Source: Burkholderia pyrrocinia (GTDB lineage: Bacteria > Pseudomonadota > Gammaproteobacteria > Burkholderiales > Burkholderiaceae). Taken from it: a stretch of DNA of 64,000 nt. Shown one piece after another: positions 21,673 to 41,044 of this stretch. Under the pieces are notes generated by a model, which saw only the letters and a list, made by a program, of their open reading frames with translations, had not been told where the DNA came from and searched no databases. Position numbers and translations under genes: made by a program. The stretch covers positions 1,612,001-1,676,000 of the forward strand of contig NZ_CP070977.1 of assembly GCF_018417535.1 (NCBI RefSeq), read 5' to 3'. Position 1 is the first letter of the stretch. Each line of letters begins with the position of its first letter.

Positions 21673-21721
21673 TGGCCCGCCCTACACGATTCGAACGTGT
21701 GACCTACGGCTTAGAAGGCCG
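21673..21721 (-). repeat. attL: 3' fragment of tRNA-Arg
   Basis: 49 bp identical to 40996-41044, covering CCA end, acceptor 3' strand, T-arm, variable region and the 3' side of the anticodon loop. Identity stops at 21722 (A instead of T). It lacks the D-arm and 5' acceptor strand, so it cannot make a tRNA. Confidence 0.95.
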
Positions 21722-21818
21722 AAAAATGGTGGCATTTATCGATGTTGATCAATTTTCATAAATCCCGTGAATCTATCGCCAGATAAGGCTGACAGACCAA
21801 TCCGGCCGTCCCGTGATG

Positions 21819-21848
21819 TTGACCCGAATTGATTGATTTGCCTAGAAT
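21819..21848 (+). promoter_or_regulatory. probable integrase promoter
   Basis: TTGACC at 21819-21824 and TAGAAT at 21843-21848 are separated by 18 bp. The predicted transcription start falls at about 21855, inside the arm-site-like repeat 21852-21871, so integrase binding there would repress its own gene. Confidence 0.55.
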
Positions 21849-21851
21849 CGG

Positions 21852-21871
21852 GTTACATGACGGTTACATGG
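21852..21871 (+). repeat. putative integrase arm-type site, left copy
   Basis: The 20-mer GTTACATGACGGTTACATGG occurs here and again at 40921-40940, near the opposite end in the same orientation. It holds two copies of GTTACATG eleven bases apart, as expected for integrase arm binding. Confidence 0.6.
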
Positions 21872-21914
21872 GGTGCGCGACGGCATGCGCAACCCGTCTT
21901 ACAGAAACGAGGCG

Positions 21915-23282
21915 ATGGCTAAGGTCAACTTCACGGCGGCGCGCGTCAACGGGCATAGTTGCCCCCCCGATAAATCCCAAGCGTTCATCTGGGATTCGGG
22001 GGCGACCGGCCTTGGTCTGCGTGCAACGGTTGCCGGCACTCGCACCTATGTCTGGCAAGGCAAGCTCAATGGAGCGACTATTCGCGTCACGATAGGGGCG
22101 CCAAAGGATTGGGGGATTGATGACGCGCGGGACGAAGCTCGCCGCCTGAAGCGTATGGCCGATAGCGGCAAAGACCCTCGCGAGGAAGCCGCCGAGCAGC
22201 GGGCTGCCGCCGAGCAACGCAGGCTGGAAGCGCTCCGGCAGGACGTTACAGTCGGTGAAGCATGGGCCGAATATCTGAAGGCGAATCAGGGCAAGTGGAG
22301 CGAGCGCCACTACGCCGACCATGAGAGGCTGGCCCACGCTGGCGGCGAGCCGAAAAAACGCGGCAAAGGTGTAACCGTTGCGGGTCCGATGGCCGCGCTT
22401 ATGTCGTTGAAGCTGTCAAACCTGACCGCCGACACCGTTGCCGCATGGCTCGAAACCGAATCGCAAACGCGTCCGACGAATGCCGAGCAGTCTTACCGGA
22501 AACTCAGGGCCTTCATCCGCTGGTGCAACGACAAACCGATATATGCGGGTTTGGTTCCGACGAACGCATACGCATCGCGCGCCGTACGCGCTGTCGTACC
22601 TCGTACCAATGCCAAAGGTGATTGCCTGCAGCGCGAGCAGCTACCCGCATGGTTTGCAGCCGTACGCCAGATTAGAAACCCGGTCATCAGCGCCTACCTG
22701 CAAGCCCTGCTACTGACCGGCGCGCGCCGCGAGGAGATGGCGGGGCTCCGTTGGGAGAATGTGGACTTCCAGTGGCGCAGCCTTCACATTGCGGACAAGG
22801 TGGAGACGGAAACGGGCCGCGTCATCCCACTCACCACGTACCTCGCGAGTGTCCTGCGGGAACTCCAGCGCTTGAACAATACCCCGCCGAATGTTCGGCA
22901 ATTGCGCGAGCTGAACGCAAAAGGCGAATCGTGGTCGCCCTCCCCTTGGGTGTTCCCTAGTAATAAATCGGCAGACGGGAAAATCGCAGAGCCGCGCATA
23001 GCGCACAATCAAGCGCTTGCGGCAGCGAGCCTACCCCACATGAGCCTACACGGCCTTCGGCGTTCGTTCGGCACGCTTTCCGAGTGGGTGGAGTGCCCGG
23101 TCGGTGTAGTGGCTCAAATTCAGGGCCACAAACCATCAGCGATCGCCGAAAAACACTACCGTCGGCGCCCGCTCGACCTTCTACGCTTATGGCACGAACG
23201 CATCGAGGGATGGATGTTGGCACAGGCGGGCGTGGTGTTTGAGGCTAGCGGCCCGCAACCGGGATTGCAGGCCGTGAAGTAA
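21915..23282 (+). CDS. int: tyrosine-type site-specific integrase
   Basis: 455 residues from ATG 21915 (GAGG just before it; MAKVNFTAARV opens the conserved N-terminal DUF4102-like arm-binding domain). In-frame GTG 21873 and ATG 21885 are alternatives. Catalytic residues of the family are visible: Arg in TGARREEMAGLRW (~270), HGLRRSFG (His and Arg, ~379), and Tyr in EKHYRR (~415). It inserts and excises the element at the tRNA-Arg 3' end by recombining the 49-bp core. It lies 190 bp inside attL and reads away from it, with a promoter at 21819-21848. Confidence 0.95.
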   Translation: MAKVNFTAARVNGHSCPPDKSQAFIWDSGATGLGLRATVAGTRTYVWQGKLNGATIRVTIGAPKDWGIDDARDEARRLKRMADSGKDPREEAAEQRAAAEQRRLEALRQDVTVGEAWAEYLKANQGKWSERHYADHERLAHAGGEPKKRGKGVTVAGPMAALMSLKLSNLTADTVAAWLETESQTRPTNAEQSYRKLRAFIRWCNDKPIYAGLVPTNAYASRAVRAVVPRTNAKGDCLQREQLPAWFAAVRQIRNPVISAYLQALLLTGARREEMAGLRWENVDFQWRSLHIADKVETETGRVIPLTTYLASVLRELQRLNNTPPNVRQLRELNAKGESWSPSPWVFPSNKSADGKIAEPRIAHNQALAAASLPHMSLHGLRRSFGTLSEWVECPVGVVAQIQGHKPSAIAEKHYRRRPLDLLRLWHERIEGWMLAQAGVVFEASGPQPGLQAVK

Positions 23283-23415
23283 TGAATTCAGCGGCCGCGC
23301 ATCCATCGCGTGCGGCCGTCACTGTTTGCTCCCGCCTAGTCTTAGCGGGCGAAGAGCCGGACACCTTCGCCGGCTCGGCGGGGGAATCCCAACGAAGGGC
23401 GCTTGAAGGGCGCAA

Positions 23416-24555
23416 ATGGTCGACACCAATCTAATACTACTGGCGACTGCCGCTGAACATTTCGCTCGGCTGCAATGGCCGGATAATGCATCGCGAGACG
23501 ACGCCATTTCGTACTTGGAACGGATTGGAGCATCTGAGGCCGCATACACGCCAGTCTACGCCGCGCGGCTGCTAACCGAGGACCGAATTCATGAGCAGAT
23601 TAAAGTGCTTTGCAAGGTGGCGCGCCTAACGCTATACGATCCCGCAGCGCAACAGCCCACCATCGACGTGCAGAACGCGCTGGTAAGCGCCCTGGACCTC
23701 GCGCAACTCCTTGCCGAGGGTGTTGTGCTCAGCAACAGCGTCGAACGCGAACTAAGCGCCCGTGCGGCTGCATGGAAAGGCACCGACGAATTCGAACGCC
23801 GTTTGCTTGATCTTCATGAGAAAGGGGTTACTCGCCCCCTGCACCTTCATGAATGGTTCAAACGCGATAACTGGACACCGCGCGAGGCCATGCCGCTGCT
23901 CCTCGGACTTGAGCCGGAGCATGACTGGTTCGCACTTGCTAATGAATCGGGAACCGACGTCACCATCGTAAGCGCGCGCTGGCTAGATGGCTCGCTCGTA
24001 TGTCTCGACGGCTGGCGTAACGCAAATGTCTTTCAGCGCGAGATTGCCCCCGATCCGAGTGATGCCGTTCCGGACGACATGCCACTCACCTCGCTGAATT
24101 TGCTCGACATGTCCGTGAGGCTGAGTCAGATGATGGCGATATTGGACAGCGGCGACCATCCGCCGCGGAACCCACCTGCCTACTATCTCGAATGGGCGGC
24201 GAAAAAGGGCTTTGATGTTCCCTGGCTCGCATGGGCTGAAAGCCAGGGACTGATTGCTCCGCGCGCAGTCGGACGGGAAGTAGCAGGAGCGCCACCAACC
24301 GAGGCGCTGACAGCCAATGCAGCCGCAACCAATGGCGAAGGGTGGAAAGCGCAGGCAAGGGAAATAGCCGACGAGTGCTTTGACCGTGACACCACGAATA
24401 GCTGCCGGGATAGCCTGGCGGGCTATTCGAAGCGCGTCATGGAAGAGATGCAAAAACGCGGCATCAACGGGCCCCGTGGACGAATCGACAACCCGAACAC
24501 GATTCAGCGCGAGGCGCTCCAAGGAAAGAAATGGTGGGCCGGCAAGGCCAAGTAA
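23416..24555 (+). CDS. hypothetical protein of the element
   Basis: 379 residues, no recognised domain. The N-terminal half is helical with Leu/Ala-rich segments (LILLATAAEHFARLQW, DLAQLLAEGVVLSNSVEREL); the middle contains HLHEWFKRDNWTPREAMPLLLGLEPEHDW, and the C-terminus is basic and polar (GPRGRIDNPNTIQREALQGKKWW). The composition is that of a cytosolic protein. It lies 134 bp after int and is followed by a terminator at 24629-24660, so int and this gene may form one transcript. Similar-sized proteins often follow integrases in proteobacterial prophages; the role is unknown. Confidence 0.7.
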   Translation: MVDTNLILLATAAEHFARLQWPDNASRDDAISYLERIGASEAAYTPVYAARLLTEDRIHEQIKVLCKVARLTLYDPAAQQPTIDVQNALVSALDLAQLLAEGVVLSNSVERELSARAAAWKGTDEFERRLLDLHEKGVTRPLHLHEWFKRDNWTPREAMPLLLGLEPEHDWFALANESGTDVTIVSARWLDGSLVCLDGWRNANVFQREIAPDPSDAVPDDMPLTSLNLLDMSVRLSQMMAILDSGDHPPRNPPAYYLEWAAKKGFDVPWLAWAESQGLIAPRAVGREVAGAPPTEALTANAAATNGEGWKAQAREIADECFDRDTTNSCRDSLAGYSKRVMEEMQKRGINGPRGRIDNPNTIQREALQGKKWWAGKAK

Positions 24556-24729: not shown

Positions 24730-24939
24730 ATGCAGACAATCAATCCCCTGGCAAACCGGGTCGGCTTCCCCGAGGTCCTGCCGACCGACGAAGCCGCCGC
24801 CGTAATCAATCGCAAGCCGCAAACCCTGCGCAAATGGGCCTGCCTCGAGAATGGCCCGATTCGTCCGGTGCGCATCAATGGGCGCCTGGCGTGGAAAGTC
24901 TCCGACCTGCAATCGCTGCTGAACGGGGGGCGCAAGTGA
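24730..24939 (+). CDS. AlpA/MerR-type helix-turn-helix regulator (excisionase-like)
   Basis: 69 residues. The winged-helix pattern is clear: LPTDEAAAVINRKPQTLRKW then a short wing region GPIRPVRINGRLAWKVSDLQSLL. Such proteins act as excisionases or as early activators in prophages and satellites; in Gram-negative PICIs alpA is a standard early gene. Cytosolic, DNA-binding. The ATG at 24730 has AAGGGTG some bases upstream. Its stop overlaps the GTG of the Rha-like gene by 4 bp (GTGA), so the two are coupled. The palindrome at 24675-24687 may control this operon. Confidence 0.85.
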   Translation: MQTINPLANRVGFPEVLPTDEAAAVINRKPQTLRKWACLENGPIRPVRINGRLAWKVSDLQSLLNGGRK

Positions 24940-25652
24940 AAAACGCCCGACCCAGCAAAGCCGAATCGAGCGCCGTCGAACAGCGCGAGTTTACCGCACT
25001 CATCCTCAACGAGTCACGCAGCGAGCCCCGTGTCGACAGCCGAGTACTCGCCCAGCATTTGGGGAATTCTCATCAACACGTGCGCGAGTTGCTCGAGAGC
25101 TATTCGAGCGACTTCGAAGCGCTAGGGGTTTTCCGGTTTGAAACCGGGAAACCTCCCCGCGGCTCGCTCGGTGGCCGCCCCGAGCGCTACGCGCTGCTGA
25201 ACGAAGACCAGTGCTACTTGCTGCTGACCTACAGCCGGAACACTGATCGCGTGCGTGCGTTGAAATTGCGCCTGGTGATCGCGTTCCGCGATGCCAGGAG
25301 CCGCCAGGCTCTCCACGACGGCGTGTATCTGCCGAGCTACCACGCCCTGCACGACGAGGTGGCCGAGATGGCTCGGCGAGCGCACGAGGCCGGGAGCGTG
25401 GCCGGTGACGAAGTGTTCCACTGCAATGTCAACAAGCTTGCCAACAAGGTTTGCGGCTTGCGAGCCGGCGAACGCCGATCGTTGAATCCAACCAAGCGGG
25501 CAATCCTGACGGCCACGCAGGAGGTAATCCGCGCGTCGCTGCAGCGTTCGATGGGCGCCGGCGACGATCACCGCGGTGCCTACCGCGCAGCCAAGCAGGC
25601 TGCGGAGGAATACGCCTCTATGGCTGGCCGTCTGCTCGGGGGCGCGCAATGA
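24936..25652 (+). CDS. Rha family phage regulatory protein
   Basis: 238 residues from GTG 24936, which overlaps the preceding stop (GTGA). Residues ~45-125 form the pRha domain: EPRVDSRVLAQHLGNSHQHVREL, GGRPERYALLNEDQCYLLLTYSRNT, RVRALKLRLVIAFRDAR. The C-terminal helical part (YLPSYHALHDEVAEMARRA onward) is of unknown role. Rha proteins are lambdoid or satellite regulators whose expression interferes with phage growth in some hosts. It lies in the tightly packed early operon alpA-rha-PC4 with 4-bp overlaps on both sides. Confidence 0.88.
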   Translation: MKNARPSKAESSAVEQREFTALILNESRSEPRVDSRVLAQHLGNSHQHVRELLESYSSDFEALGVFRFETGKPPRGSLGGRPERYALLNEDQCYLLLTYSRNTDRVRALKLRLVIAFRDARSRQALHDGVYLPSYHALHDEVAEMARRAHEAGSVAGDEVFHCNVNKLANKVCGLRAGERRSLNPTKRAILTATQEVIRASLQRSMGAGDDHRGAYRAAKQAAEEYASMAGRLLGGAQ

Positions 25653-25885: not shown

Positions 25886-25908
25886 TGGCAAATCAAAAAA
25901 AATCGGTC

Positions 25909-25937
25909 TTGACATGTAGGGCTTTTGGGCCTACCTT
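25909..25937 (+). promoter_or_regulatory. sigma-70-like promoter for the second early operon
   Basis: Perfect -35 TTGACA at 25909-25914, 17-bp spacer, -10 TACCTT at 25932-25937. It lies directly after the PC4-like stop and upstream of the XRE-like gene and replication genes. Confidence 0.6.
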
Positions 25938-26035
25938 GTGCATCAGCGGCTGCGCTCTCGCGCGGCCCACCACAGCCGAGAGGATCCGACAAATGACGTA
26001 CCCGTTCTGGGAGGCCTTGGGCCGCCCTATCTCCC

Positions 26036-26299: not shown

Positions 26300-26301
26300 C
26301 C

Positions 26302-27141: not shown

Positions 27142-27535
27142 GAGACAACCTGATGCAGCCGGCCTGCTCACCTTCTTTTGGGACCGCTTCGATGCGACCG
27201 TAGCAACTGATGAGGAGCTGGAGTATCTGTCCAGTGCTTCAGGCGAAGTTGCGCACGCGGCGTGGACACTCAGCTCACACATATCCGGGATTGGTGGTCT
27301 GATCGAGCGCGACCGTGGCTTCGAAGGCAAACCGCAGTGCGGCGAGCTCCAGGATGCCGACCAAGCGGCACTTCTTTATCGCATCGCCGGCGAGCTCGAG
27401 GCAATTGGCCATCTCGCCTACATCGGAAGCGAGTCGGATTCCGTGCTCCGCACTCGAAGGGCTGAGAAGCTCGCGGCAGGCAAATCTCGTCGTGTACGGA
27501 TCCCTGAGCAGTCCTCAACGCTCGAGGAGGTTTGA
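27134..27535 (+). CDS. hypothetical protein
   Basis: 133 residues, acidic and helical (LLTFFWDRFDATVATDEELEYLSS, DADQAALLYRIAGELEAIGHLAYIG), with a basic tail (EKLAAGKSRRVRIPEQ). No recognised domain. GGAGG lies nine bases before the ATG. Its last base is shared with the start of the primase-helicase, whose ribosome-binding site GAGGAGG lies inside the end of this gene. Confidence 0.68.
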   Translation: MSKRQPDAAGLLTFFWDRFDATVATDEELEYLSSASGEVAHAAWTLSSHISGIGGLIERDRGFEGKPQCGELQDADQAALLYRIAGELEAIGHLAYIGSESDSVLRTRRAEKLAAGKSRRVRIPEQSSTLEEV

Positions 27536-29925
27536 TGAGCGTTGCAGAAAAAGAACGTATCCGCGCGGCACTAAGCCACGTGCCAGCAGATGACCGCGAT
27601 ACGTGGGTCCAGATGGGTATGGCTATCAAGGCCGAGCTCGGCGAAGCTGGATTCGACTTCTGGGACGACTGGTCGCGTTCGGCGTCGAGCTACAGCGAAG
27701 CCGATGCGAAATCGGTCTGGAAATCGTTTCGCTCGGGCGGCATCACGATCGCCAGTCTGTTCAAACGAGCGATCGAGCATGGCTACCGTGAAAGCGAGCC
27801 CACGACCGCGCTGTCGGCCGACGAGCGCGAACGCCGCCGAGTTGAACGTGATCGCGAAGCGGCTACCGCCGCCGAGATCCACCAACGCGCCCAGGCGGAG
27901 GCGGCCACCAAGGCTCGCAATCTTTGGGAGAAGGCCGGGACCGTTCATGCGGACCACGCCTACGTCCGCACGAAGCGCATCAAACCCTACGGCGCTAAGC
28001 AACTGCGCGATCAGCTTGTCGTCAAGCTGCAGGACATTGACGGCGAGCACCACTCCGCGCAATACATCCGGCCGGACGGTCACAAAGCCTTTCAGACCGA
28101 TGGCCGAATCAGCGGGTGCTTCGTCGCGGTCAGTGTCGGAGTCAAGCCGACTGGCAAGACACCGCTGCTGATCTGCGAAGGCTATGCGACGGCCTGCTCA
28201 CTTCACGAAGCAACCGGCTATCCCGTCGCTGCGGCTATGAACGCCGGTAACCTGCCGAACGTCGCGCGCGCCTGGCGCGAAAAACATCCCGAGCTGCGCA
28301 TCGTGCTCTGTGCTGATGACGACACGGAGACGGCCGGTAATCCGGGCATGAGCAAGGCAACCGAGGCAGCGCGCGCGATCGGTGCCTTACTGGCCGTGCC
28401 TGACTTCGGTAAAGACCGCCCTGGACACGCATCGGATTTCAATGACCTGTACTGCCTCGCCGGGCTCGAGGCGGTGCGACGCTGCGTCGACGCGGCGACT
28501 GCGCCGGAAGATGCCACCGCTCCGAAGAAGCGCACTGCGCCGACCGTCAACCTGTCCTGCGCGGCCGACATTGTGCCGGAGCCGATTCACTGGCTCTGGC
28601 CTGGCTGGCTGCCTGCCGGCAAGCTCTCAATCCTCGCCGGGCAACCTGGGTGCGGAAAGACGACCATCGCCATTTCGCTGTCGTCTGCCATCTCCAACGG
28701 CGCAGAGTGGCCGGACGGTACACGCTGCAAAGCGCCGGGGAACATTTTGATCTGGACCGGAGAAGACGGGCTCGCCGATACGCTCGTCCCTCGCCTCATG
28801 GCAGCCGGCGCTGATCTCAGGCGCGTTTTCTTCGTGGAGTCGATCACGAATGAGGCGGGCGGGCTCCAGCCATTCGATCCAAGCCGCGATGTTCCCATTC
28901 TGGCCGAGCGCGTCGAGCAGATTGGCGGTGCAAGCATGCTTGTCGTCGATCCGATCATCAGTGTGGTGAACGGCGACTCTCACAAGTCCGGCGATGTTCG
29001 GAAATCGCTTCAGCCGCTGATCGACCTCGGAGCTGCCCACGGCTGCGCAATCCTCGGTATCACGCACTTCTCGAAGGGCTCGAAGGGCTCATCGCCGACC
29101 GAGCGCATTCTTGGCTCGCAGGCGTTCGGCGCCGCCGCGCGGATGATTCTTGTGGCCGGCAAGGATGACACGTCCGACCGCCGGATCTTCGCCAAGTCGA
29201 AATGCAATATCGCCGGCGATTCCGGGGGGTTCGAGTATGCGATCGAAACGCTCGACGCTCAGGATGGTCTCGCATCAAGCCGAATCGCATGGGGCGAACC
29301 TCTCGACGGCTCGGCGCGCGAGATCCTCCGCGAACTGGAGGCCGATGACCAGGACACCGACGAGCAGAGCGAGCGCGAATCGAAGTTCGAGCGTGCGCGC
29401 TGCATGCTTTACGAATGGCTAACTCCTTTCATGAGCACCAAGGAGATGAAAGCGGCGGCCCAGGCCGAAGGCGTGAGCTGGCGCATGGTGGAGGCTGCTA
29501 AGGCCGCCGAGGTGAAGGCTGGCAATAAAATCCGGGCCGTGAAGCATGGCAAGGATTGGGGCTGGATTTGGGATAATTACGACGCCAAGTACGGTGATTC
29601 AACTCCGCAGTCGCAGATCGTCTCAAGTCCGCAAGGAATTCAAGTCCGCAAAGACGATTGCGGAGTTGAATCCCTTATCCAGAAAGGCTCAGAAGCCAAG
29701 TCCGCAAGTCCGCAGTCGGTTGACGGAGTTGCCGGCATTGTCGCCACATGTCCGCAATCCCCCGTCAACTCCGTACACTCAGGAAATCATTGCGGAGTTG
29801 CGGACTTGACGGCAAACCCTTACTCATCAAGGGAATCAACTCCGCAATCAAGTCCGCAGCCCTCCTTAGACTGCGGACTTGACGGTGATGTTGCGGCGGC
29901 GGCCGAACTGGAGGACGACGTATGA
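27535..29925 (+). CDS. phage-type primase-helicase (PriCT/TOPRIM/RecA-like)
   Basis: 796 residues from ATG 27535 (GAGGAGG upstream). Domains in order: a PriCT_2-like segment (~8-85, DRDTWVQMGMAIKAELGEAGFDFWDDWSR), a TOPRIM-type primase region (~120-310, with LLICEGYATACSLHEATG, VLCADDDTE and GHASDFNDL), and a RepA/KaiC-like ATPase (~345-600) with Walker A GQPGCGKTT, ILIWTGEDG, Walker B LVVDPIISV and GITHFSKG. A low-complexity Ser/Pro/Gln tail follows. It should prime and unwind DNA for autonomous replication of the element. The 3' end of the gene contains the repeat cluster 29601-29880, a likely replication origin, which explains the odd tail sequence. It is the central gene of the compact early operon. 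Confidence 0.92.
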   Translation: MSVAEKERIRAALSHVPADDRDTWVQMGMAIKAELGEAGFDFWDDWSRSASSYSEADAKSVWKSFRSGGITIASLFKRAIEHGYRESEPTTALSADERERRRVERDREAATAAEIHQRAQAEAATKARNLWEKAGTVHADHAYVRTKRIKPYGAKQLRDQLVVKLQDIDGEHHSAQYIRPDGHKAFQTDGRISGCFVAVSVGVKPTGKTPLLICEGYATACSLHEATGYPVAAAMNAGNLPNVARAWREKHPELRIVLCADDDTETAGNPGMSKATEAARAIGALLAVPDFGKDRPGHASDFNDLYCLAGLEAVRRCVDAATAPEDATAPKKRTAPTVNLSCAADIVPEPIHWLWPGWLPAGKLSILAGQPGCGKTTIAISLSSAISNGAEWPDGTRCKAPGNILIWTGEDGLADTLVPRLMAAGADLRRVFFVESITNEAGGLQPFDPSRDVPILAERVEQIGGASMLVVDPIISVVNGDSHKSGDVRKSLQPLIDLGAAHGCAILGITHFSKGSKGSSPTERILGSQAFGAAARMILVAGKDDTSDRRIFAKSKCNIAGDSGGFEYAIETLDAQDGLASSRIAWGEPLDGSAREILRELEADDQDTDEQSERESKFERARCMLYEWLTPFMSTKEMKAAAQAEGVSWRMVEAAKAAEVKAGNKIRAVKHGKDWGWIWDNYDAKYGDSTPQSQIVSSPQGIQVRKDDCGVESLIQKGSEAKSASPQSVDGVAGIVATCPQSPVNSVHSGNHCGVADLTANPYSSRESTPQSSPQPSLDCGLDGDVAAAAELEDDV
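29601..29880. repeat. iteron-like repeat cluster, candidate replication origin
   Basis: Twelve exact copies of the 9-mer AASTCCGCA (S = C or G; one has AT at the start) or its complement lie in 280 bp: forward at 29601, 29625, 29642, 29698, 29706, 29748, 29838, 29850; reverse at 29659, 29791, 29799, 29872. Near-matches stand at about 29731 and 29767. They sit inside the low-complexity 3' end of the primase-helicase gene. Clustered short repeats beside a primase-helicase are typical of satellite and plasmid origins. Confidence 0.7.
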
Positions 29926-30410: not shown

Positions 30411-30535
30411 TCTCCATCAACACGCGCTGCTACGGGTCGGCGACCAGGGGGAGCTTCCTCTGCTTGACGGCATGGGATCATATGCGGATGCGGCAGAGCA
30501 CCGCTCGACGCGACATACAACCAGGGGGTAAATGA
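30407..30535 (+). CDS. possible 42-residue protein bridging two coupled genes
   Basis: The frame starts with an ATGA overlap on the previous stop and ends inside the first ATGs of the SSB-like gene, so it would couple translation of the two. It reads MISINTRCYGSATRGSF and is basic, with no domain. The continuity supports it; the short length and Arg-rich tail leave real doubt. Confidence 0.4.
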   Translation: MISINTRCYGSATRGSFLCLTAWDHMRMRQSTARRDIQPGGK

Positions 30536-33524: not shown

Positions 33525-33681
33525 GTGCGAAGCCCCGGCCGGCGGTGGGCATACTCAGAAAAACACCGGCATCTGCCGACGCTCGTGGAAGCGGGCAGCC
33601 TCTCCTGATTCTCGTCGATCAGGTCCAACTCGCGGCGGGCGGTAGAACCCTCTCATTAAACTCAGGAGTTTCGAAGTTGCC

Positions 33682-34761
33682 ATGAAGAAAATCATCTCAT
33701 TCACCGCTACAGCGAGTATCGCGTTCGCCCTCCTCTGGACGTCTACCGCATATTCACAGTTCAGCCCCGGACAGGTCCTCACAGCCAGTCAACTGAACCA
33801 AGCGTTCTCGAACGTGCTCCCGCTGTCGGGAGGTGCGCTGACGGGTCCACTCACAGTGCCGACGCTGACAAGTACCAATGTTGCAATTACGGGCGGTGCG
33901 ATCAATGGCACCGCAATCGGAGGCAGTGCTCCCAGCGCCGCTGCATTCACGACCATCAACACGGGCAGTGCGAGTGTGTCGGGGGCGCTTAGCGTCGCCG
34001 GAGCTGCTACGGCAACGTCGATCTCGATCCCGACGAGCTCAGGCACGAACCCGATCACGCTGGTAAATAATAATAACAATCAGATCGCATGGCCGTCCGG
34101 ATCCTCGATCCAACTGAATGGATCTGGATCGATCCAGTTTGGCGGAAGCGTCAACGGAGCGTTGCTGTCGAACGACGGCGCACCGAACGATATTGTGATG
34201 GTCGGTCCCTCCAATTTAGCTGGCTACGATACCAACTTTGTTTTGTATCCTTCCCCGCAGGCCGGCGCATTTTTGGTAGTAAATCGAGTCGGCGGCCCCA
34301 ATCAAGAGCAGTTCATTTTCGGCGCTCCGGACCCGGCAACCAATGCGAAATATCTGTTTTCTCAGGTGATCGACGGTGCCGGGCACTACCGGCCGGTCCA
34401 GTTCAATGGCGGCGCGATTGACGCATTTACGCTCACGACGAGCGGTAATGTTCAATTCGACAATCATGTTTCCGCAGCATCGTCGGCACTCGGAAACGTC
34501 ACGATGTCAAATTGCGGAACGGGTGCGTCCGCCGCATTCGCGAATGACGTTCGCGGCACGCTGGTGATGGGAACGGGTAGCGTTACCTCGTGTACCGTGA
34601 CCTTCAACCAGGCCTACGCGTCGACGCCGAGTTGCGTGATCACCGGGTTAGGATCTGGCACTGCCGTGCTGTCCATGTCAGCGCTGTCTACGGCGGGGTT
34701 CACGATCGCGTCATCCGCCGACATCAGTGGCAAGTACGTCACGTACATGTGCATGCAGTAA
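33682..34761 (+). CDS. tail-fibre-like repeat protein with a signal peptide
   Basis: 359 residues. Unlike normal fibre proteins it starts with a typical Sec signal (MKKIISFTATASIAFALLWTSTAYS, cleavage near residue 25). After that comes a fibre-type head (FSPGQVLTASQLNQAF, LPLSGGALTGPLTV) and Gly/Ser/Thr/Asn-rich beta repeats (AITGGAINGTAIGGSAPSAAAFTTIN). The C-terminal ~80 residues (SNCGTGASAAFANDVRGTLVMGTG, TSCTVTFNQAYASTPSCVITG) form a Cys-containing beta domain. It could be exported and surface-displayed, for example to act on phage adsorption. AGGAG precedes the ATG. The region is AT-richer than its neighbours. Confidence 0.75.
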   Translation: MKKIISFTATASIAFALLWTSTAYSQFSPGQVLTASQLNQAFSNVLPLSGGALTGPLTVPTLTSTNVAITGGAINGTAIGGSAPSAAAFTTINTGSASVSGALSVAGAATATSISIPTSSGTNPITLVNNNNNQIAWPSGSSIQLNGSGSIQFGGSVNGALLSNDGAPNDIVMVGPSNLAGYDTNFVLYPSPQAGAFLVVNRVGGPNQEQFIFGAPDPATNAKYLFSQVIDGAGHYRPVQFNGGAIDAFTLTTSGNVQFDNHVSAASSALGNVTMSNCGTGASAAFANDVRGTLVMGTGSVTSCTVTFNQAYASTPSCVITGLGSGTAVLSMSALSTAGFTIASSADISGKYVTYMCMQ

Positions 34762-35305
34762 CCATTCAGAACGATGCCATCCACGAATGGCTTTCAATTA
34801 AACGGCGGTCCGAACCCGCTGCAGCCCTTTCTTAATGCGGGGCTTCAAGGGTTCGACCGCGCCAGTGGCGAACTACACCCCGCAACCCCAACAATGACAA
34901 AGAATCACGATCCCAAATGGTCATCGTGAATTTTCGGGCCGGTCGATCGAGTCTCGCTCGCAAAACGGCCGCCGTCGACGCGGAATTCGGCCCTTCGGAC
35001 GACCAGGCGTGCCCTCGAAACCGCCCGGGTCCTTCGGCGGGATCTCCGAACATGCGGGCACTGCGCACCGCGATTTTCGACCAGCTACAAACTTCTGGAT
35101 TTGCTTGACAGAATCATCGATAGGGAAATTCTATAGCTTGACAAAATGGACTTAAGCCCATGAAACGAAAAGAATTTCATTCGCGCGTTGACCGGCGAAA
35201 TTCTGTCAAGTTGGTTGACAGCAGGTTGACAAATTGACGGGCGAACGAGCTCGAGCACCCAATTTCGCGGCCGTGCCGGCCGCACCTTTGCCAGAGGAAA
35301 TCAAC
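34762..35305. other. non-coding region upstream of the small-terminase-like gene
   Basis: 540 bp without a convincing gene. The right part (35104-35239) holds repeated TTGACA motifs and an inverted repeat, described separately. The left part shows only short Arg-rich frames. Confidence 0.6.
35104..35239. promoter_or_regulatory. TTGACA repeat cluster and inverted repeat, candidate operator of the packaging gene
   Basis: TTGACA occurs at 35105, 35138, 35215 and 35226, with TTGAC at 35234 and the complement TGTCAA at 35204. CTTGACAGAAT (35104-35114) and ATTCTGTCAAG (35200-35210) form an 11-bp inverted repeat across 85 bp. A relative, TTGACAAAAT, recurs at 40908-40917 by the right arm site. Confidence 0.5.
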
Positions 35306-35872
35306 ATGGCATTCATGAAGCAGTCGGAATTTGCGGACCTGTGCGGCGTGTCACGACAGGCCGTGCTCAACTGGAAGCGCGAGAGCAAACTCGTCATGCA
35401 GGGCGCGCGCGTCGACGTCGATGCGTCCCTGGCTCGGCTCGGCCGGGTTCGGCGCGGCGGCTCTCCCGTTCAGCCGGAGGCGAGCAAGGATGCAGTAGTC
35501 GACATCGAGATCCAGCCCGGCGAATCACTCGACCAGGCTGCTGAACGCCTCGCGGGCGAGATCGATGTCGATGGCACGAGTTTCGACGAAGCCAGGCGCA
35601 TTAAGGAGGTCTATCTCGCCCTACTGCATCGCCTCGATTTCGAGAAGAAGTCTGGCGCCCTGGTGGAGCTCGATACCGCCAGCACCGTCCTCTTCGAGGA
35701 GTTCCGGGCACAGCGCGATGCGTGGCTCAACTGGCCGGCAAAGGTCGGGCCACTGATTGCCTCCGAACTCGGCATCGAGGCCGACAAGATCACCTCGGTG
35801 CTGGTCGCCCATGTCCACAAGCAGATTGCACAACTGGGGGAACCGGAGGTTCAGTTCAGCGAGGACCGCTGA
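35306..35872 (+). CDS. phage small terminase subunit-like (Nu1/TerS) protein
   Basis: 188 residues from ATG 35306 (AGAGGAAA upstream). Residues ~3-55 are a winged helix-turn-helix (MKQSEFADLCGVSRQAVLNWKRE, then VMQGARVDVDASLARLG), the DNA-recognition domain of Nu1-type small terminases. The rest is a helical oligomerisation region (ARRIKEVYLALLHRLDFEKKSG, TVLFEEFRAQRDAWLNWPAKVG, LVAHVHKQIAQLG) typical of this family. It would select element DNA for packaging. The large terminase is absent, as in satellites that redirect a helper's large subunit. tRNA-fMet follows 40 bp downstream. Confidence 0.8.
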   Translation: MAFMKQSEFADLCGVSRQAVLNWKRESKLVMQGARVDVDASLARLGRVRRGGSPVQPEASKDAVVDIEIQPGESLDQAAERLAGEIDVDGTSFDEARRIKEVYLALLHRLDFEKKSGALVELDTASTVLFEEFRAQRDAWLNWPAKVGPLIASELGIEADKITSVLVAHVHKQIAQLGEPEVQFSEDR

Positions 35873-35911: not shown

Positions 35912-35988
35912 CGCGGGGTGGAGCAGTCTGGCAGCTCGTCGGGCTCATAACCCGAAGGTCATAGGTTCAAATCCTATCCCCGCAACCA
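35912..35988 (+). tRNA. initiator tRNA-fMet (anticodon CAT) carried by the element
   Basis: 77 nt with encoded CCA. Acceptor CGCGGGG / CCCCGCA leaves a C1-A72 mismatch, and the anticodon stem ends in three G-C pairs (GGG around CTCATAA around CCC); both are marks of initiator tRNA. The T-arm is TAGGTTCAAATCCTA. A strong terminator follows at 35995. Confidence 0.93.
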
Positions 35989-35994
35989 ACATCG

Positions 35995-36149: not shown

Positions 36150-36383
36150 ATGCAAATTGACGTTACGGGGCTGAAACCTGATCCGGATAACAAAGGGCAT
36201 GTTCTGGGATGGGGAGTGATTCGACGAGCACCGTGGCACTTCGCTGGCGTTTACCCAAGCGAGGACGCTGCCAACGCGGTGGCAGCAGAGTTGGGCCCGG
36301 ACTACGTTTTCGACTACGGCTCTCATCGTGTCGGTTCGGACGATTTCATCGGCGGCCTTGACCCGAGGACTGTACGCCAGTAA
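36150..36383 (+). CDS. small hypothetical protein
   Basis: 77 residues from ATG 36150, chosen for the perfect AAGGAGG upstream. Sequence MQIDVTGLKPDPDNKGHVLGW then GVYPSEDAANAVAAELGPDYVFDYGSHRVGSDDFI; a compact alpha/beta protein with no recognised family. It is the first cargo gene after the tRNA. Codon use is AT-richer than in the host. Confidence 0.7.
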   Translation: MQIDVTGLKPDPDNKGHVLGWGVIRRAPWHFAGVYPSEDAANAVAAELGPDYVFDYGSHRVGSDDFIGGLDPRTVRQ

Positions 36384-36477: not shown

Positions 36478-37386
36478 ATGAGAAAGCGACTTCATCACCA
36501 TGTCTGGCAACACTATCTGAAATCGTGGCTAGTCAACGGGGCGATAACATGCTTGGCCGCAGATTCGATCTTCCGAACCGGAACCGTCCGAGTTGCAGTG
36601 GATCGCGACTTCTACACACTGAAGGCTCTCAGCAATCAAGATCTGCAGCTCGCCCGCGTCTTGATCGGCGGAGTGAAGAACGAGGACGCACGTCAAAGCC
36701 AGCTTAGATTTTTGGAAAGGATTGCAATTCCTTCCAGGCTCAAAGGCATATCACCAGACATCGATAGCGAGATTGATACATTTCACAGCAACGTCCTCGA
36801 GGAATGGCACACAGCGATTGAACACTCGTTCATCCCGTTACTGAAAAGGGCGCTGGTTCACGACATCGATTTCTATAGACACGACCAAGACTGCATCCCG
36901 TTCCTTCACTACCTGTGCACTCAGAACATGCGAACAAAGGGTGTTCGCGAACGTGTTTTAGCGCTGAACGCGGAAAGCGGCGTTCTAGACATATCCAGAA
37001 TCTGGCCGATCCTCGCCATTACCTTCGCGGAAAACGTTGGGGCGACCCTGTATGTTGAACGACGGCGACGCAAACTTGTGTTGATTCAGAACACGACTGA
37101 CGTGCCGTTCATAACCGGTGATCAGCCCGTGGCTAATCTATTGGCCATTGCAGACGGCCCGCCTGAGCGTTTGGCCCTCTACTACCCGATTTCTCCTGAC
37201 CTTGCATTGGTATTGAACGAGGTCGATGACGAACTCCCTCTTGCCAGCGAAACACTTACGACGGAGCAAGTCCGCGGCCTCAATGCGAAACTTGCATCAG
37301 GGTGCCACGCGCAGCTGTTCGGTACTTCGGAGGAGGCTTTACGCTCTGCTCAACACGATCCCGCATGGGTTCCACGCTCTTCATGA
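36478..37386 (+). CDS. DUF4238-like protein, cargo gene
   Basis: 302 residues from ATG 36478. The N-terminus RLHHHVWQHYLKSW and the late motif VPFITGDQPVANL match the two conserved blocks of DUF4238 proteins (HHxxxxxYLxxF and F.T.DxPV). Between them lies a helical region (IDTFHSNVLEEWHTAIEHSFIPLLKRAL, PFLHYLCTQNMRTKG). The catalytic role is unknown. The gene is clearly AT-richer than the host, lies among element cargo, and its end overlaps the first prtN-like ATG by 4 bp. An anti-phage or host-benefit role is a guess. Confidence 0.75.
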   Translation: MRKRLHHHVWQHYLKSWLVNGAITCLAADSIFRTGTVRVAVDRDFYTLKALSNQDLQLARVLIGGVKNEDARQSQLRFLERIAIPSRLKGISPDIDSEIDTFHSNVLEEWHTAIEHSFIPLLKRALVHDIDFYRHDQDCIPFLHYLCTQNMRTKGVRERVLALNAESGVLDISRIWPILAITFAENVGATLYVERRRRKLVLIQNTTDVPFITGDQPVANLLAIADGPPERLALYYPISPDLALVLNEVDDELPLASETLTTEQVRGLNAKLASGCHAQLFGTSEEALRSAQHDPAWVPRSS

Positions 37387-37643
37387 ATACAGTCTTCTTA
37401 CTGATGGCACAGTACGGGGCAACTGCCGTCGTTCCGGTCGAGCTCGTCTGTCGTGACTACTTCTCGCATCTCACCGTGCCCCAGTTTGTTCGCAAGGTAA
37501 GTACCGGCGACATTGCCATCCCACTCGTTCGGATGGAACGGTCAAAAAAGGCAGCAAAGGGCGTTCACATTCAAGATCTCGCGAACTACATCGATGAGCG
37601 GCGTGCTGCCGCATTAAAGGAATGCGAGCAGCTGCGCTCCTAG
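37383..37643 (+). CDS. PrtN-type pyocin activator protein, copy 1
   Basis: 86 residues: MNTVFLLMAQYGATAVVPVEL, CRDYFSHLTVPQFVRKVSTGDIAIPLVRM, HIQDLANYIDERRAAA. This is the PrtN family, in which Pseudomonas PrtN activates pyocin genes through P-box promoters after DNA damage. It should be a DNA-binding activator of element or helper-phage genes. It overlaps the DUF4238-like stop by ATGA. A paralogue lies 155 bp downstream. Confidence 0.85.
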   Translation: MNTVFLLMAQYGATAVVPVELVCRDYFSHLTVPQFVRKVSTGDIAIPLVRMERSKKAAKGVHIQDLANYIDERRAAALKECEQLRS

Positions 37644-37798
37644 CGCTCTGCCAATCGATGCAGTTGCCGATTCAGTGGGCAAGGCTGATGCCAATTGCGC
37701 GCGTGCCATTGGCTGAATGGGCAGTTGGTGCAGCGCTGCTCATTCGGCCCAGCGTCGCCCGCGCGATCACCGGACAATTCAATTGCGACCCACGGACC

Positions 37799-38059
37799 AT
37801 GAACACAGTCTTCTTGCTGATGGCTCAGTACAACGCGACAGCGATCATACCGATCGATGTCGTGTGCCGAGACTACTTCGCGCCGATGACGGTCGCGACG
37901 CTTGTCAGAAAGATCAGCACTGGCGAAATTCCGCTCCCGCTCATTCGGATGGGAAAGTCCCAGAAGTGCGCTAAGGGCGTCCATATTCAGGATCTGGCGA
38001 ACTACATCGACGAGCGTCGGGCAGCAGCAGTGAAGGAGTGTGCGCAGTTACGCGCATAG
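37799..38059 (+). CDS. PrtN-type pyocin activator protein, copy 2
   Basis: 86 residues, the same length as copy 1 and about three-quarters identical by eye (MNTVFLLMAQYNATAIIPIDV, HIQDLANYIDERRAAA). The differences lie mainly in the middle (APMTVATLVRKISTGEIPLPLIRM). This is a tandem duplication, suggesting either dosage or altered target choice. The 155-bp gap between the copies has no gene. Confidence 0.85.
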   Translation: MNTVFLLMAQYNATAIIPIDVVCRDYFAPMTVATLVRKISTGEIPLPLIRMGKSQKCAKGVHIQDLANYIDERRAAAVKECAQLRA

Positions 38060-38079: not shown

Positions 38080-38568
38080 TCAGTTGACGAGACTGAAGCC
38101 GATCGCGAGCGTGCTTGCAATGGCAAGCATTGCGCTTACCCATCCACAAACCTGACCCGCAACATTGAGTCGTCTTCCGGCAGTGAGGCGATCGTACACA
38201 TGGTCTATTTGCTTGGACAAATCCCCCACTTCCACCATTCGCGATTTGACTTCATTCAGCATCCTGTCAAAGCTCACTGAGGCGAGATACATATTGAGAA
38301 TAGCGAAAGCAACCCCGAGCCCATATCCGAGCAACGCAGTGGCGCCGATCCACTTCGGATGAGGCAGCTTCGCACCCGCCAATAGAGTTGCCACGCCGGC
38401 CAAGCCAGCCGCATTCAGCACGACCAGGTGTTTGACTGTCTCAAGGTCCCATGTGGATGAGCGCTCCGACAAGCGTTCCCACCATTGCTCGAGCATGGAA
38501 CGCGCTGCGTGCCGCCGGGCCGATTCCCGGCCTCGCGCGTCATCCACAAGATCATTTCGGATGTCCAT
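38080..38568 (-). CDS. small integral membrane protein
   Basis: 162 residues, convergent to the prtN pair. Hydrophobic segments: VVLNAAGLAGVATLLAGA (~50-67), WIGATALLGYGLGVAFAILNMYLASV (~73-98) and VCGWVSAMLAIASTLAIGFSLV (~139-160). The region between the second and third is a heptad-like amphipathic helix (MLNEVKSRMVEVGDLSKQIDHV), and the N-terminus is charged and cytosolic. GAGGAG lies nine bases before the ATG. No family is recognised. Membrane proteins with a helical sensor are often effectors in anti-phage systems; that is speculation here. Confidence 0.72.
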   Translation of the reverse strand: MDIRNDLVDDARGRESARRHAARSMLEQWWERLSERSSTWDLETVKHLVVLNAAGLAGVATLLAGAKLPHPKWIGATALLGYGLGVAFAILNMYLASVSFDRMLNEVKSRMVEVGDLSKQIDHVYDRLTAGRRLNVAGQVCGWVSAMLAIASTLAIGFSLVN

Positions 38569-38763
38569 AACCTAAGTCTCCTCGTTCGCTCCCGATACCC
38601 GAGAGAATATCGGATCAAGAGCGTCGCAAGATGCCCGCGCCCAAATTCGAACCGGCGCTACCGCTGCTGGCAAAGCCCTTGTACCCACGAGTCGGAACAG
38701 GCCTGCAATGCCGAGTATGAGCATCTCAAGGGTCGGAACGCCACTGCCCTACTAGCATCATCG

Positions 38764-38796
38764 AAGCCCATTCTGCGAAAGCACGCGGGCTTTTTA
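38764..38796 (+). terminator. putative terminator resembling the one after tRNA-fMet
   Basis: AAGCCC (38764-38769) and GGGCTT (38787-38792) flank a loop and a T-run follows. The block ATCGAAGCCC...GCGGGCTTTT matches the terminator at 35995, but no intact RNA or protein gene lies just before it. The surrounding gap 38569-38857 holds no other recognised feature. Confidence 0.5.
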
Positions 38797-38857
38797 TCTG
38801 GACCGTGGCAACGGGCATGTCACTTTACCGACGGCCCATTACGCGGCTGGGCAAATC

Positions 38858-39205
38858 TCATGGCTTCGCCTGATCCAACTTGCGCATAAACTCATCCTCC
38901 GACTTCTGTATCAGTTTATCCGCGAGTCCCTGAATGGTCGGATTGAGATGCACGGCCACGTATAGAACCTTTTCCATGGAACTACGAGATAGGCGAAAAG
39001 CAGGTGTGAACGCGCGTCCAGCATCCTTCACGAAATGAATTTCCCTTACCGCGACCGTGTCCCCAAACGCATCTATGTGGCTCTTGCGAGCTTCAACTGC
39101 GCGCCATGGCAAATATGGGTTATCGAGAGCGTTTAGCCTGTCCAGATCCCGCCAAAAATCCTCGTCGGACCTATATAAGCTGGCCTTTCCCGTTTTCGTA
39201 TTCAC
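38858..39205 (-). CDS. hypothetical protein, end of a minus-strand cargo operon
   Basis: 115 residues from GTG 39205, which overlaps the upstream stop (GTGA). Sequence SLYRSDEDFWRDLDRLNALDN, VREIHFVKDAGRAFTPAFRLSRS, LIQKSEDEFMRKLDQ. Charged and soluble, with no known domain. Last gene of the set starting at 40582. Confidence 0.6.
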   Translation of the reverse strand: MNTKTGKASLYRSDEDFWRDLDRLNALDNPYLPWRAVEARKSHIDAFGDTVAVREIHFVKDAGRAFTPAFRLSRSSMEKVLYVAVHLNPTIQGLADKLIQKSEDEFMRKLDQAKP

Positions 39206-39456
39206 ATTGATTTCCTACGCAGAGCATTGTCAATCTGCGACGATCGACTGTTCCCGAGCATCTCGTCGACCTGAATCATCGAAACCTGCGGTGGCCTAGT
39301 ATGCCGCTCTGCGAAGGGGTAGACAGCGCGAACCGCAATGGCTAGCGCCCGTCCCATACTGCTCCACTGGCACAAGCCACCTCGATTGATCGGCCGCAAC
39401 TCAGCGAGTTTCGAGCGTAGCGCGTCACCCTCACCGCTGCAAGGCGGTCTCGTCAC
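39202..39456 (-). CDS. possible small protein coupled to its neighbours
   Basis: 84 residues from a GTG at 39456 (or ~51 from an internal ATG near 39354). Its 5' end overlaps the 3' end of the membrane protein gene and its 3' end overlaps the next start by GTGA. The stretch RALAIAVRAVYPFAERHTRPPQVS followed by MIQVDEMLGNSRSSQ reads like a real protein. The true start is unclear. Confidence 0.5.
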   Translation of the reverse strand: MTRPPCSGEGDALRSKLAELRPINRGGLCQWSSMGRALAIAVRAVYPFAERHTRPPQVSMIQVDEMLGNSRSSQIDNALRRKSM

Positions 39457-40375
39457 TGGTAGTATTTTCGTTAATCCCTGCGGCGACAAGCGCTTGACGC
39501 CCCTTTTCAAGTAGGCGGCCTTGCTCTTTTGATGTAATGTTGTCGCCCCAAAATCTGCGCTCGAGATAGAAATTGCTAATCTCCGCTCCGGAAAGAAACA
39601 GCATATCACTCTTATGTCGCTGTGATTTATCTACGTTAGCACTCTGCTGTAGCGGCCAATCGGGGCCTCTACTGACTGCGGCAGGGATAAACGGTGTTCC
39701 GAGCATATCCGCTGGTGATACAGCAACTATAGGAGCGCGGTTTGGTATTGCAACCACGCTACTCATTGCACTGGTGAGTGTAATATAACTAATCGCCCCG
39801 TCAGTCTTGACGTATATGTTACTAAGCTGCCCCTCATATAGGATGACCTGCCCGCTGTCCTGGACCTTTGATAATGCAGAAACAGCGATAATTGTCTCCC
39901 CTTTTCTTTTAGAATTAAAAGGCCCTCGTATCTCATACAGCCATGGGTGCCGAGCCAAGCGCGAGAATAACGGCAATTGATATTCAATTGCCAATCCGCA
40001 CACCAATCCAATCGCAACACCAGCCACATCTATGCATGCAAAATATACAATGACGTGTGCAATATGCTGGGCAAGACCGAAGGATGTTGTGCGCAAATCT
40101 GCGCCCGAAATATTATCGGCGTGAAGTACCGGAAAGAAATAGCTAAGATCAACAGGAGCAATCCATCGAATGTGATTTGCCGCCCACCCGTTGATAACTA
40201 TATAAAATGCCCCGTGAAGGAAAAACGAGGTGCAAACAATCCCCGCAAGCTGCCCTAATGGGCTAATAGCAACGGTTTCTCGACTAATCGCTTGCGGGGC
40301 ATAAAGACCAGCAAAGAAAAAAGCGCCTGGCGTAAGCAGGACAGCAACAACTACCGTGGCCCAAGCAAGAGACAC
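39431..40375 (-). CDS. membrane protein, possibly DUF6338-like
   Basis: 314 residues. The N-terminal half has three or four membrane helices (LAWATVVVAVLLTPGAFFFAGL, LGQLAGIVCTSFFLHGAFYIVI, HVIVYFACIDVAGVAIGLVCGL). The C-terminal half is soluble: HPWLYEIRGPF, then IIAVSALSKVQDSGQVILYEGQL and AISYITLTSA, which recalls the DUF6338 family in which a small beta domain follows a membrane part. The gene is strongly AT-rich for this genome. It follows a 66-residue gene by 6 bp. Function unknown; a phage-defence role is possible only by context. Confidence 0.7.
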   Translation of the reverse strand: MSLAWATVVVAVLLTPGAFFFAGLYAPQAISRETVAISPLGQLAGIVCTSFFLHGAFYIVINGWAANHIRWIAPVDLSYFFPVLHADNISGADLRTTSFGLAQHIAHVIVYFACIDVAGVAIGLVCGLAIEYQLPLFSRLARHPWLYEIRGPFNSKRKGETIIAVSALSKVQDSGQVILYEGQLSNIYVKTDGAISYITLTSAMSSVVAIPNRAPIVAVSPADMLGTPFIPAAVSRGPDWPLQQSANVDKSQRHKSDMLFLSGAEISNFYLERRFWGDNITSKEQGRLLEKGRQALVAAGINENTTSDETALQR

Positions 40376-40381
40376 GTTGTC

Positions 40382-40582
40382 TTACAACGGCGTGACAGTC
40401 GTCAGATTCTTTCCTTTGAGCGCAATACGCCTTTCAACAATACGATTCACTGCTTCTTCGTATGTCACCGGGGAGCCATCCGCAAGAGGCTCTAACGCTT
40501 CGAGAACCAATTTAATATCGCCGCCAGCAAGGTCAACAAGCCCCTTGAAGCCCTCTTCGCTTCGATTGGTAGAGATACGCAT
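40382..40582 (-). CDS. small soluble protein, first gene of the minus-strand cargo operon
   Basis: 66 residues (SEEGFKGLVDLAGGDIKLVLEAL, SPVTYEEAVNRIVERRIALKGK). Acidic N-terminal half, basic C-terminus. GGAGGTCC precedes the ATG. Its stop is 6 bp before the membrane protein start, so the two are one transcript. It could be a partner or antidote of the membrane protein; no family is recognised. Confidence 0.68.
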   Translation of the reverse strand: MRISTNRSEEGFKGLVDLAGGDIKLVLEALEPLADGSPVTYEEAVNRIVERRIALKGKNLTTVTPL

Positions 40583-40995
40583 TTGGACCTCCGGGGTTTC
40601 TCGAGACTCAAGCCAATAATGTGCGCCAGCGGTTCCATGATCAAGGAGGGGCAGTACCTACAGCGCGCAATTTGATCGTAGCAAACGTTCCCATGGTCAG
40701 TATGCCTCAGATCAAAAAAGGCAGGGGTACCGCTAGCTCAGCGTTGCTGCACAACCATTGATCGGCGGAGCTCGGCCGCTGCATTGCTGGCGCACTCGGT
40801 CAGGGGTCGCTCGGAGATAAGGCATCTCATGCCTGTGCTCAAACACGCTCGCCGGAGGGGTGTGCGGCTTTTCGAAGCGACCACGAAGGCGTGCACAAGC
40901 AGGTGGGTTGACAAAATCCAGTTACATGACGGTTACATGGAGCAATGACGGGGAATCTGATTGAAGCAAAAAAAGCCACAAACCCTTGATTTCAC
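40583..40995. other. right end of the element, no gene recognised
   Basis: About 410 bp between the last cargo gene and attR. It carries the right arm-type repeat and should hold the promoter of the 40582 operon on its left side. Confidence 0.55.
40921..40940 (+). repeat. putative integrase arm-type site, right copy
   Basis: Identical 20-mer to 21852-21871 and in the same orientation, 55 bp inside attR. Confidence 0.6.
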
Positions 40996-41044
40996 TGGCC
41001 CGCCCTACACGATTCGAACGTGTGACCTACGGCTTAGAAGGCCG
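40996..41044 (-). repeat. attR core within tRNA-Arg
   Basis: 49 bp identical to 21673-21721, inside the intact tRNA gene. Integration kept the tRNA whole at this end. Confidence 0.95.

Follow-up and report, generated by a model that had tools for sequence, protein, structure and literature searches.

Among the phage satellites described for Gram-negative bacteria, the phage-inducible chromosomal islands (PICIs) of the EcCICFT073 type carry an integrase, an alpA-like regulator and a primase with its origin of replication, combine cosQ and cosN of the helper type with a recognition sequence of their own and, in some cases, encode the small terminase subunit TerS (PMC6092414, PMC9026076); in E. 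coli PICIs, cosQ and cosN of the helper are kept and cosB is changed (PMC9026076). PICIs are further defined by the absence of phage structural genes and by a size of about 12-15 kb (PMC6092414). Two other groups encode virion proteins: capsid-forming PICIs (cf-PICIs) bring along capsid, portal and both terminase subunits (PMC10690885), and the PICI-like elements (PLEs) of Vibrio cholerae, on average 18 kb long (PMC10803314), were reported in 2026 as the first satellite family that makes chimeric tails containing a satellite tape measure protein (PMC12987554). Putative tape measure (tmp) genes are also shown in the same report for PLE-like elements and for some of the cf-PICIs (PMC12987554, Extended Data Fig. 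10 legend), so that satellite tail genes are not in themselves a new idea. Our analysis of a 64,000-nucleotide stretch of the Burkholderia pyrrocinia genome (hereafter ‘the window’; RefSeq assembly GCF_018417535.1, contig NZ_CP070977.1, positions 1,612,001 to 1,676,000) places beside these systems a 19.3-kb element at window positions 21,673 to 41,044, in which genes for virion parts occupy an apparently exchangeable slot between a hallmark gene, o318, and the predicted cos site and terS gene of the element.

The element shares with Gram-negative PICIs the genes and the cos arrangement listed above, and the organisation expected of a PICI (integrase, replication module and master regulator) is found as well, with a weak assignment of the alpA-like and Rha regulators. 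It differs from them in that it (i) contains virion genes, (ii) measures 19.3 kb and not 12-15 kb, (iii) carries o318, (iv) has a complete TerS, encoded next to cos, in place of Rpp, and (v) belongs to a different host family (compare PMC6092414, PMC9026076). An earlier sequence-only reading had taken the element for a PICI-like satellite. The satellite part of that proposal is strongly supported by the absence of phage core genes from all 17 element loci considered below, but membership in the PICIs fails on account of the decoration protein and fibre genes of the window, the virion genes at 12 of 13 loci with o318, and the size. Hence, the element appears to work like a Gram-negative PICI, yet departs from two of the defining properties of that group, and is best read as representing a distinct family of satellites.

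The other described groups do not accommodate the element either. It resembles the PLEs in size and, as far as its relatives are concerned, in having genes for a tape measure or hub, which in PLEs serve chimeric tails. All PLE variants retain tmp and tac, and their helper is the virulent phage ICP1 (PMC12987554); here, the part varies from element to element (comprising also the decoration protein D, a protease, gpN, gp48 or a fibre), and a lambda-type cos with TerS is present; the window element moreover lacks a tape measure and has a host from the Burkholderiaceae. Structural proteins are likewise encoded by cf-PICIs, but from their set of capsid, portal, protease and terminases the element has only TerS, to which D is added. 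Phage-inducible chromosomal minimalist islands are characterized by a small gene set, integration at fis and the lack of terS, and the element, with 19.3 kb, a tRNA-Arg site and terS, is not one of them. Among the PHROGs and Pfam matches of 20 open reading frames (ORFs), none belongs to the P4 marker families psu, delta and sid, which were not searched for singly. Serratia phage vB_SspM_BZS1 and Citrobacter phage phiNP, in which the gene order is TerS-TerL-W-portal-protease, have the same cos layout but, unlike the element, are complete phages, with genomes of about 45 kb (44,995 and 44,932 bp). In the titles and abstract starts covered by our literature search, outside whose scope most subscription papers and bioRxiv preprints fall, we recognised no description of Burkholderiaceae satellites of this kind, nor was an exchangeable slot that reaches head and tail parts and is paired with cos/TerS found there.

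The element family was delineated with o318. Matches were obtained in 4 of 65 genomes of the genus, 11 of 398 of the family and 2 of 399 of the order, as well as at five loci in named genomes (Burkholderia sp. D-99, Paraburkholderia sp. BCC1884, P. sejongensis, Pandoraea terrigena and Burkholderia sp. E7m39) and at one in IMG/VR. After dropping G756 (a 90-bp fragment of o318) and G653 (E 6e-4), these overlapping searches leave 13 distinct element loci spread over several genera, which are, apart from the window and using our own handles, G093, G314, G310, G295, G787, G062, G024, G287, G738, G767, L059 and L060. The protein database contributes 63 homologues (7,997 candidates scored), while 50,697 phage and 72,556 plasmid records contain no match at E <= 0.001, and PADLOC gave only weak matches for o318 and for a 314-aa gene. 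A search with TerS, which has matches in 44 of 299 family genomes, leads to overlapping loci: when the neighbourhoods of ten of the best matches (40 kb, in one case 28.8 kb) were annotated with our own gene caller, G093, G295, G062, G024 and G287 were found to share o318 and some of the early genes with the window, G141, G198, G220 and G296 proved to be prophages with a lambda-type head and a Mu-type tail, which are candidate helpers only, and G263 is a relic.

At 12 of the 13 loci, virion genes lie in the interval from o318 to terS or, at loci without terS, simply follow o318; their identity changes from one locus to the next. The window has D and a fibre; G093 a tape measure and a 550-aa protein that has no family match of its own and is 44% like the tail-spike-type protein of G287; G314 a fibre and a tape measure; G295 a fibre; G787 the gpP hub; G062 gpN (DNA_circ_N); L059 a fibre, a fibre-type protein and neck1; L060 a tape measure and gpP; G024 gp48 and a neck1-type fragment; G287 D, a tape-measure fragment and a spike-type protein; and G738 and G310 each an S49 head maturation protease. 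Four further element-like loci, detected through an RNA described below, hold a tape measure (N314b), a fibre and D (N746), gpN and a fibre (N164), or a tape measure, gpP and gpV (N730). Direct evidence for exchange between retained outer flanks comes from comparison of the window with G093, since stretches that are 91.6% (25667-31191) and 92.4% (34858-36025) identical enclose slots that are unrelated except for 70 nt of the RNA. A 358-aa tyrosine recombinase, I2 (PF00589), marks the right edge of the slot at 6 of the 13 loci, and what remains of its gene in the window lies where the DNA is 92% identical to G093 from 34858 on. The last part of this gene contains, in its intact form, a palindrome that was considered as a recombination site and dropped, because it lies within the I2 coding sequence. 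The signature of the family is thus the exchangeable virion-gene slot adjoining o318, and not D or the initiator tRNA, which had been noted earlier.

Comparison of slot genes with their relatives yields ratios of nonsynonymous to synonymous substitutions (dN/dS) of 0.13 for D, 0.10 for the tape measure, 0.05 for gp48, 0.12 for gpP and 0.22 for gpN, with dS ranging from 1.1 to 2.6 and thus near saturation in the pairs used; two further pairs were saturated and give no value. Several slot proteins (D, tape measure, gpN, gpP and gp48) cover 88-100% of the helper protein. The D protein of the window belongs to a group in which all members have 220 aa (four matches at 89-90% and G287 at 77%); among the best 120 of 1,029 D matches, those outside this group do not exceed 63%, apart from one partial match of 73% (39% of the query). 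We lean, if only slightly, towards the formation of chimeric particles. The same satellite could instead use its slot genes as weapons, with helper-like virion proteins that are misplaced or made in excess poisoning helper assembly. Such a role would be in line with the blocking of tail assembly by PICIs and related elements (Tai; PMC11364771), with the Rta protein that a cholera PLE adds against tail assembly (PMC12987554), and with the tape measure of the G287 slot being a mere fragment; it is rendered unlikely by the near full-length coverage of several slot proteins, by the low dN/dS of all five measured pairs, by the precedent that has been studied best, in which the satellite tape measure is built into the particle (PMC12987554), and, in our judgement, by fibres and tail spikes seeming poor poisons. 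That the slot genes are neutral passengers, brought in when recombination takes place near cos and lost again on a regular basis, would explain why the slots of L059 and G024 hold all or part of the helper gene located just before terS. The low dN/dS, the largely full-length genes, the same position at 12 of 13 loci, the fact that only some virion functions are represented and the separate 220-aa D group make this quite improbable.

The genes for the large terminase subunit (TerL), portal, capsid, sheath and tube were found at none of 17 element loci in the stretches examined (tblastn, E <= 1e-5), while three control prophages each returned all five. The queries were taken mainly from the G141 prophage, in which TerL was assigned by PF05876 and portal, capsid, sheath and tube by order and size as in the annotated phage phiNP. 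The 17 loci comprise the 13 with o318 and the four added from 14 RNA-search neighbourhoods; from the latter, G102, G031 and G747 were left out because terL lies downstream of the RNA, G312 and G098, which look alike, were left out as well, and G016, G037, G157, G071 and G203 are either incomplete or of undecided status. The element itself shows no large terminase, portal or capsid gene within 19.4 kb and no match to a lysis family among the 20 ORFs scanned, in agreement with the sequence-only reading, and its expectations that the gene set would recur in relatives lacking morphogenesis genes, and that the locus is more than prophage leftovers, are likewise borne out: relatives with a full head and tail module were sought, and none is among the 17. 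A prophage that has lost its central morphogenesis block could account for TerS, D and cos being common to the element and to lambda-headed Burkholderiaceae prophages. We nevertheless reject a deletion remnant as largely refuted and very improbable, considering that the architecture recurs at the 13 o318 loci in several genera, none of them with core genes in the stretches examined, that the slot genes precede terS in the element and follow it in the candidate helper prophages, and that o318 is without match in the phage records.

The predicted packaging region is of lambda type. Upstream of terS, helper-type prophages and satellites share a block that starts with GGGTCC(T/C) (14 sequences aligned), with G263 and G767 carrying the variant GGTACTT in this cosQ-like block. 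From the same motif to the cohesive ends it is 30 nt in lambda and 31 nt both in BZS1, the record of which annotates a 12-nt cosL, and in the window, where the predicted cohesive end GCACTGCGCACC agrees with BZS1 in 10 of 12 bases and with lambda in 6 of 12. The window contains a single match to the cos pattern, and 100 shuffles yield none; among 299 family genomes only G000 and G093 have it, once each and at the satellite, and a reversed control pattern was not found. Candidate helper prophages carry cohesive ends other than that of the window. Between cosN and terS follow five TTGACA boxes, the third inverted, which the window, G093 and L060 have in common with conserved spacing; GTAACA boxes are found instead in prophages G141 and G198 and in phages BZS1 and phiNP, and G220 has a different repeat. 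Compared with four helper-type TerS proteins (three from prophages and one from the relic G263), TerS of the window is 29-55% identical over residues 1-50 and 69-74% over residues 106-185, with 33-35% across the linker between them, while three divergent satellite TerS (G295a, L059, G767) reach only 18-31% in the last part. Because the N-terminus of lambda TerS binds cosB and its C-terminal half binds TerL (PMC9026076), this pattern predicts DNA recognition of its own combined with a shared motor. TerL of the candidate helper G141 has its best matches in the phage collection, at 51%, with BZS1 and phiNP. The G295 satellite contains two terS genes in tandem (L033 18512-19144 and 19560-20123 of joined L033/L034); their C-terminal halves differ, and they may serve two helpers.

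The cos layout, the two halves of TerS, the iterons in the primase gene, the recurring coreless architecture and the unrelated slots between outer flanks of ~92% identity, as read from the sequence, are consistent with the following scheme: a helper would induce the element via its Rha, alpA-like or PrtN-like regulators; primase and iterons would replicate it; the satellite TerS would bind the TTGACA array and steer the helper TerL to cosN; and D and the fibre, or in relatives a tape measure, hub, gpN, gp48 or protease, would enter chimeric particles. That the element is a satellite we hold, taken alone, with high confidence, and we consider the whole reading, i.e. a helper-dependent, self-replicating satellite that is packaged through its own cos/TerS and whose slot genes refit helper particles, to be probable. 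It is tempting to go further and, tentatively and with somewhat less than even expectation, to propose a class of satellites with a virion-part cassette, a swappable set beside o318 and often beside I2 that rebuilds stolen particles, with TerS diverting the helper motor and several members having a private cosB. If true, virion reprogramming by satellites would be modular and reach head and tail parts alike. The slot variants that occur in nature, including a pair whose outer flanks are ~92% identical, would make the gain from a virion part of one's own directly testable, and shared cosQ/cosN with varying cosB/TerS pairs would constitute a natural experiment on the evolution of terminase specificity.

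Several observations weigh against this reading. The helper was not found: a search of the entire host genome gave no TerL of the lambda type (PF05876), other TerL types not having been sought genome-wide, while the same search matches four of four positive-control prophage genomes, and no sampled prophage has the exact cosN of the window. In the genome of G093, a prophage with TerL lies about 0.59 Mb from the satellite and may be a first candidate. Satellites G062, G287 and G314 have helper-like GTAACA boxes, so that a private cosB exists in some elements only, and since the helpers G141 and G220 show a like contrast in TerS (24%, 33% and 89%), a diverged N-terminal and conserved C-terminal part does not alone mark satellites. 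At three of the 13 o318 loci (G787, G738, G310) terS is missing in the stretches examined, and one (G314) is truncated. The slot of G767 contains no recognised virion gene, the tape measure of G287 is a fragment of only 110 aa, and one pair of slot fibres (34% identity) has a dN/dS of 0.35; dS is near saturation in the pairs used. The o318 stretch (31778-32756) is only 69% identical between the window and G093, so that the exchanged unit may include o318, and fold comparison of o318 yielded nothing at E <= 0.001 and nothing informative. Finally, a site missing the satellite alone was not seen among 29 loci around the tRNA.

Nine slots contain an RNA of ~111 nt whose predicted helices covary: 17 cells are changed on both sides (0 of 500 shuffles as high), and 95% of cells are paired, compared with 32-43% when the alignment is slid. 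One of five measures, further pair types, is not unusual (reached by 122 of 500 shuffles), and neither is folding stability compared with shuffles (z -0.8 to +1.0), so that the case rests on covariation. According to a covariance model, 10 of the 13 o318 loci carry one copy each, which in L059 follows terS; G738, G310 and G767 lack it, and the four helper-type prophages have no match at E <= 1. The model has matches in 21 of 398 family genomes. In prophages G102, G747 and G031 a terL of another type follows shortly after the RNA, and in G102 terS intervenes. Rfam gives only a sub-threshold and partly overlapping match to Proteo-phage-1 (22.6 of 42 bits). An integron-like attC cassette site was considered, and the position upstream of terL in unrelated prophages fits an RNA of the late operon better; our guess is that it serves late-gene control.

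Table 1. Features of the element in window coordinates.
Feature	Position	Strand	Basis or remark
attL	21673..21721	.	49-bp copy of tRNA-Arg 3' end; exact repeat
Tyrosine integrase	21885..23282	+	Arm-DNA-bind_3 and Phage_integrase
int-alpA RNA (RF02996), between int and alpA-like gene	23329..23398	+	52.3 bits; gathering score 35.8
379-aa gene	23416..24555	+	no family match
alpA-like helix-turn-helix regulator (weak)	24730..24939	+	HTH_17
Rha regulator	24936..25652	+	PF09669; PHROG 2657/518
Primase-helicase	27535..29925	+	PriCT_2, Toprim_3, AAA_25
13 iterons, predicted origin	29600..29881	.	CAA(G/C)TCCG on both strands, in 3' end of primase gene
162-aa gene, TubC_N-like domain	29922..30410	+	PF18563
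SSB-like protein	30532..30906	+	PHROG 44
o235	30917..31624	+	recurs in element family
o318	31796..32752	+	coiled-coil hallmark gene
Slot gene 1, D-family head decoration protein	32862..33524	+	220 aa; PF02924; Pfam HDPD 98 bits
Structured RNA between slot genes	33529..33652	+	model R1
Slot gene 2, tail-fibre-like protein	33682..34761	+	PHROG 32740/33320
Recombinase relic, last ~14 codons of I2	34853..34894	+	78.6% over 14 aa, E 0.019
cosQ-like GGGTCCTT	35027..35034	+	
Predicted 12-nt cohesive end (cosN) GCACTGCGCACC	35058..35069	+	10/12 vs annotated cosL of MT843275; same 31-nt spacing
cosB-like array, five TTGACA boxes	35105..35231	.	35105, 35138, 35204 (inverted), 35215, 35226
terS, small terminase	35306..35872	+	PHROG 57
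Initiator tRNA-Met	35912..35988	+	copy of chromosomal gene
77-aa gene	36150..36383	+	PHROG 4280
DUF4238 gene	36478..37386	+	PF14022
Two PrtN-like activator genes in tandem	37383..38059	+	PF11112; PHROG 1300 excisionase
Right arm: 162-aa gene and other genes without assigned function	38080..40582	-	
attR	40996..41044	.	49 bp within tRNA-Arg(TCT); exact repeat

As summarized in Table 1, family matches uphold the earlier naming of the integrase, Rha, the primase-helicase, D and TerS, and the iterons and the identical att repeats at tRNA-Arg are present as had been described; no other 600-base stretch of the window contains a 9-mer with more than five copies. The int-alpA RNA, the predicted cos site, the structured RNA and the recombinase relic extend that earlier list. 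Two further names hold in part: a helix-turn-helix gene is indeed located at the position of ‘alpA’, but the name is weak (22.6 bits, cut-off 27), and the SSB gene has its PHROG match but falls just short in Pfam (25.3, cut-off 26). The initiator tRNA gene is likewise present but no family feature, occurring at 2 of 10 element loci scanned. In these two satellites (the window and L055 15832-15908) it is complete and has a terminator; the satellite tRNA is identical in 77 of 77 positions to chromosomal copies of two relatives, and the host has two other close copies. The tandem PrtN-like pyocin-activator genes are also present in G093.

The right att copy is the 3' end of tRNA-Arg(TCT), which spans 40996-41072, and the circular form of the element would have 19.3 kb. 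Judged by 15-bp candidate att repeats at the tRNA end, two relatives would measure 19.3 and 19.9 kb. The 36-bp repeat of G093 encloses 28.7 kb, including a second integrase, and at seven other element loci the search for att repeats found none. Two units (38.7 kb) would correspond to 86% of a 45-kb helper genome. At 7 of 29 tRNA loci from other genomes of the genus, sequence that matches the window up to ~12,299-12,317 lies within ~20-50 nt of the tRNA, and the satellite therefore sits in a larger tRNA island (~28.7 kb). The left flank (14,000-18,000 and 18,000-21,672) has no homology in the loci around the tRNA; in most relatives other sequence adjoins tRNA-Arg(TCT). Window 12300-21672 is the left part of this island, absent beside the tRNA in the 7 of 29 relatives, and contains, by sequence impression only, large membrane and glucanase-like genes.

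Some minor observations concern related loci. Genome G314 has two elements of this type (L077 and L160) with different tape measures, and a 347,635-base contig of Burkholderia contaminans, listed for an o318 homologue and for a D of the 220-aa group alike, may hold both. A C4 antisense RNA (RF01695) is located within the G024 element (L040 11370-11455), and the helper-type prophage G141 contains an RT-15 RNA (RF03018; L041 3846-4028) next to a gene resembling those for reverse transcriptases.

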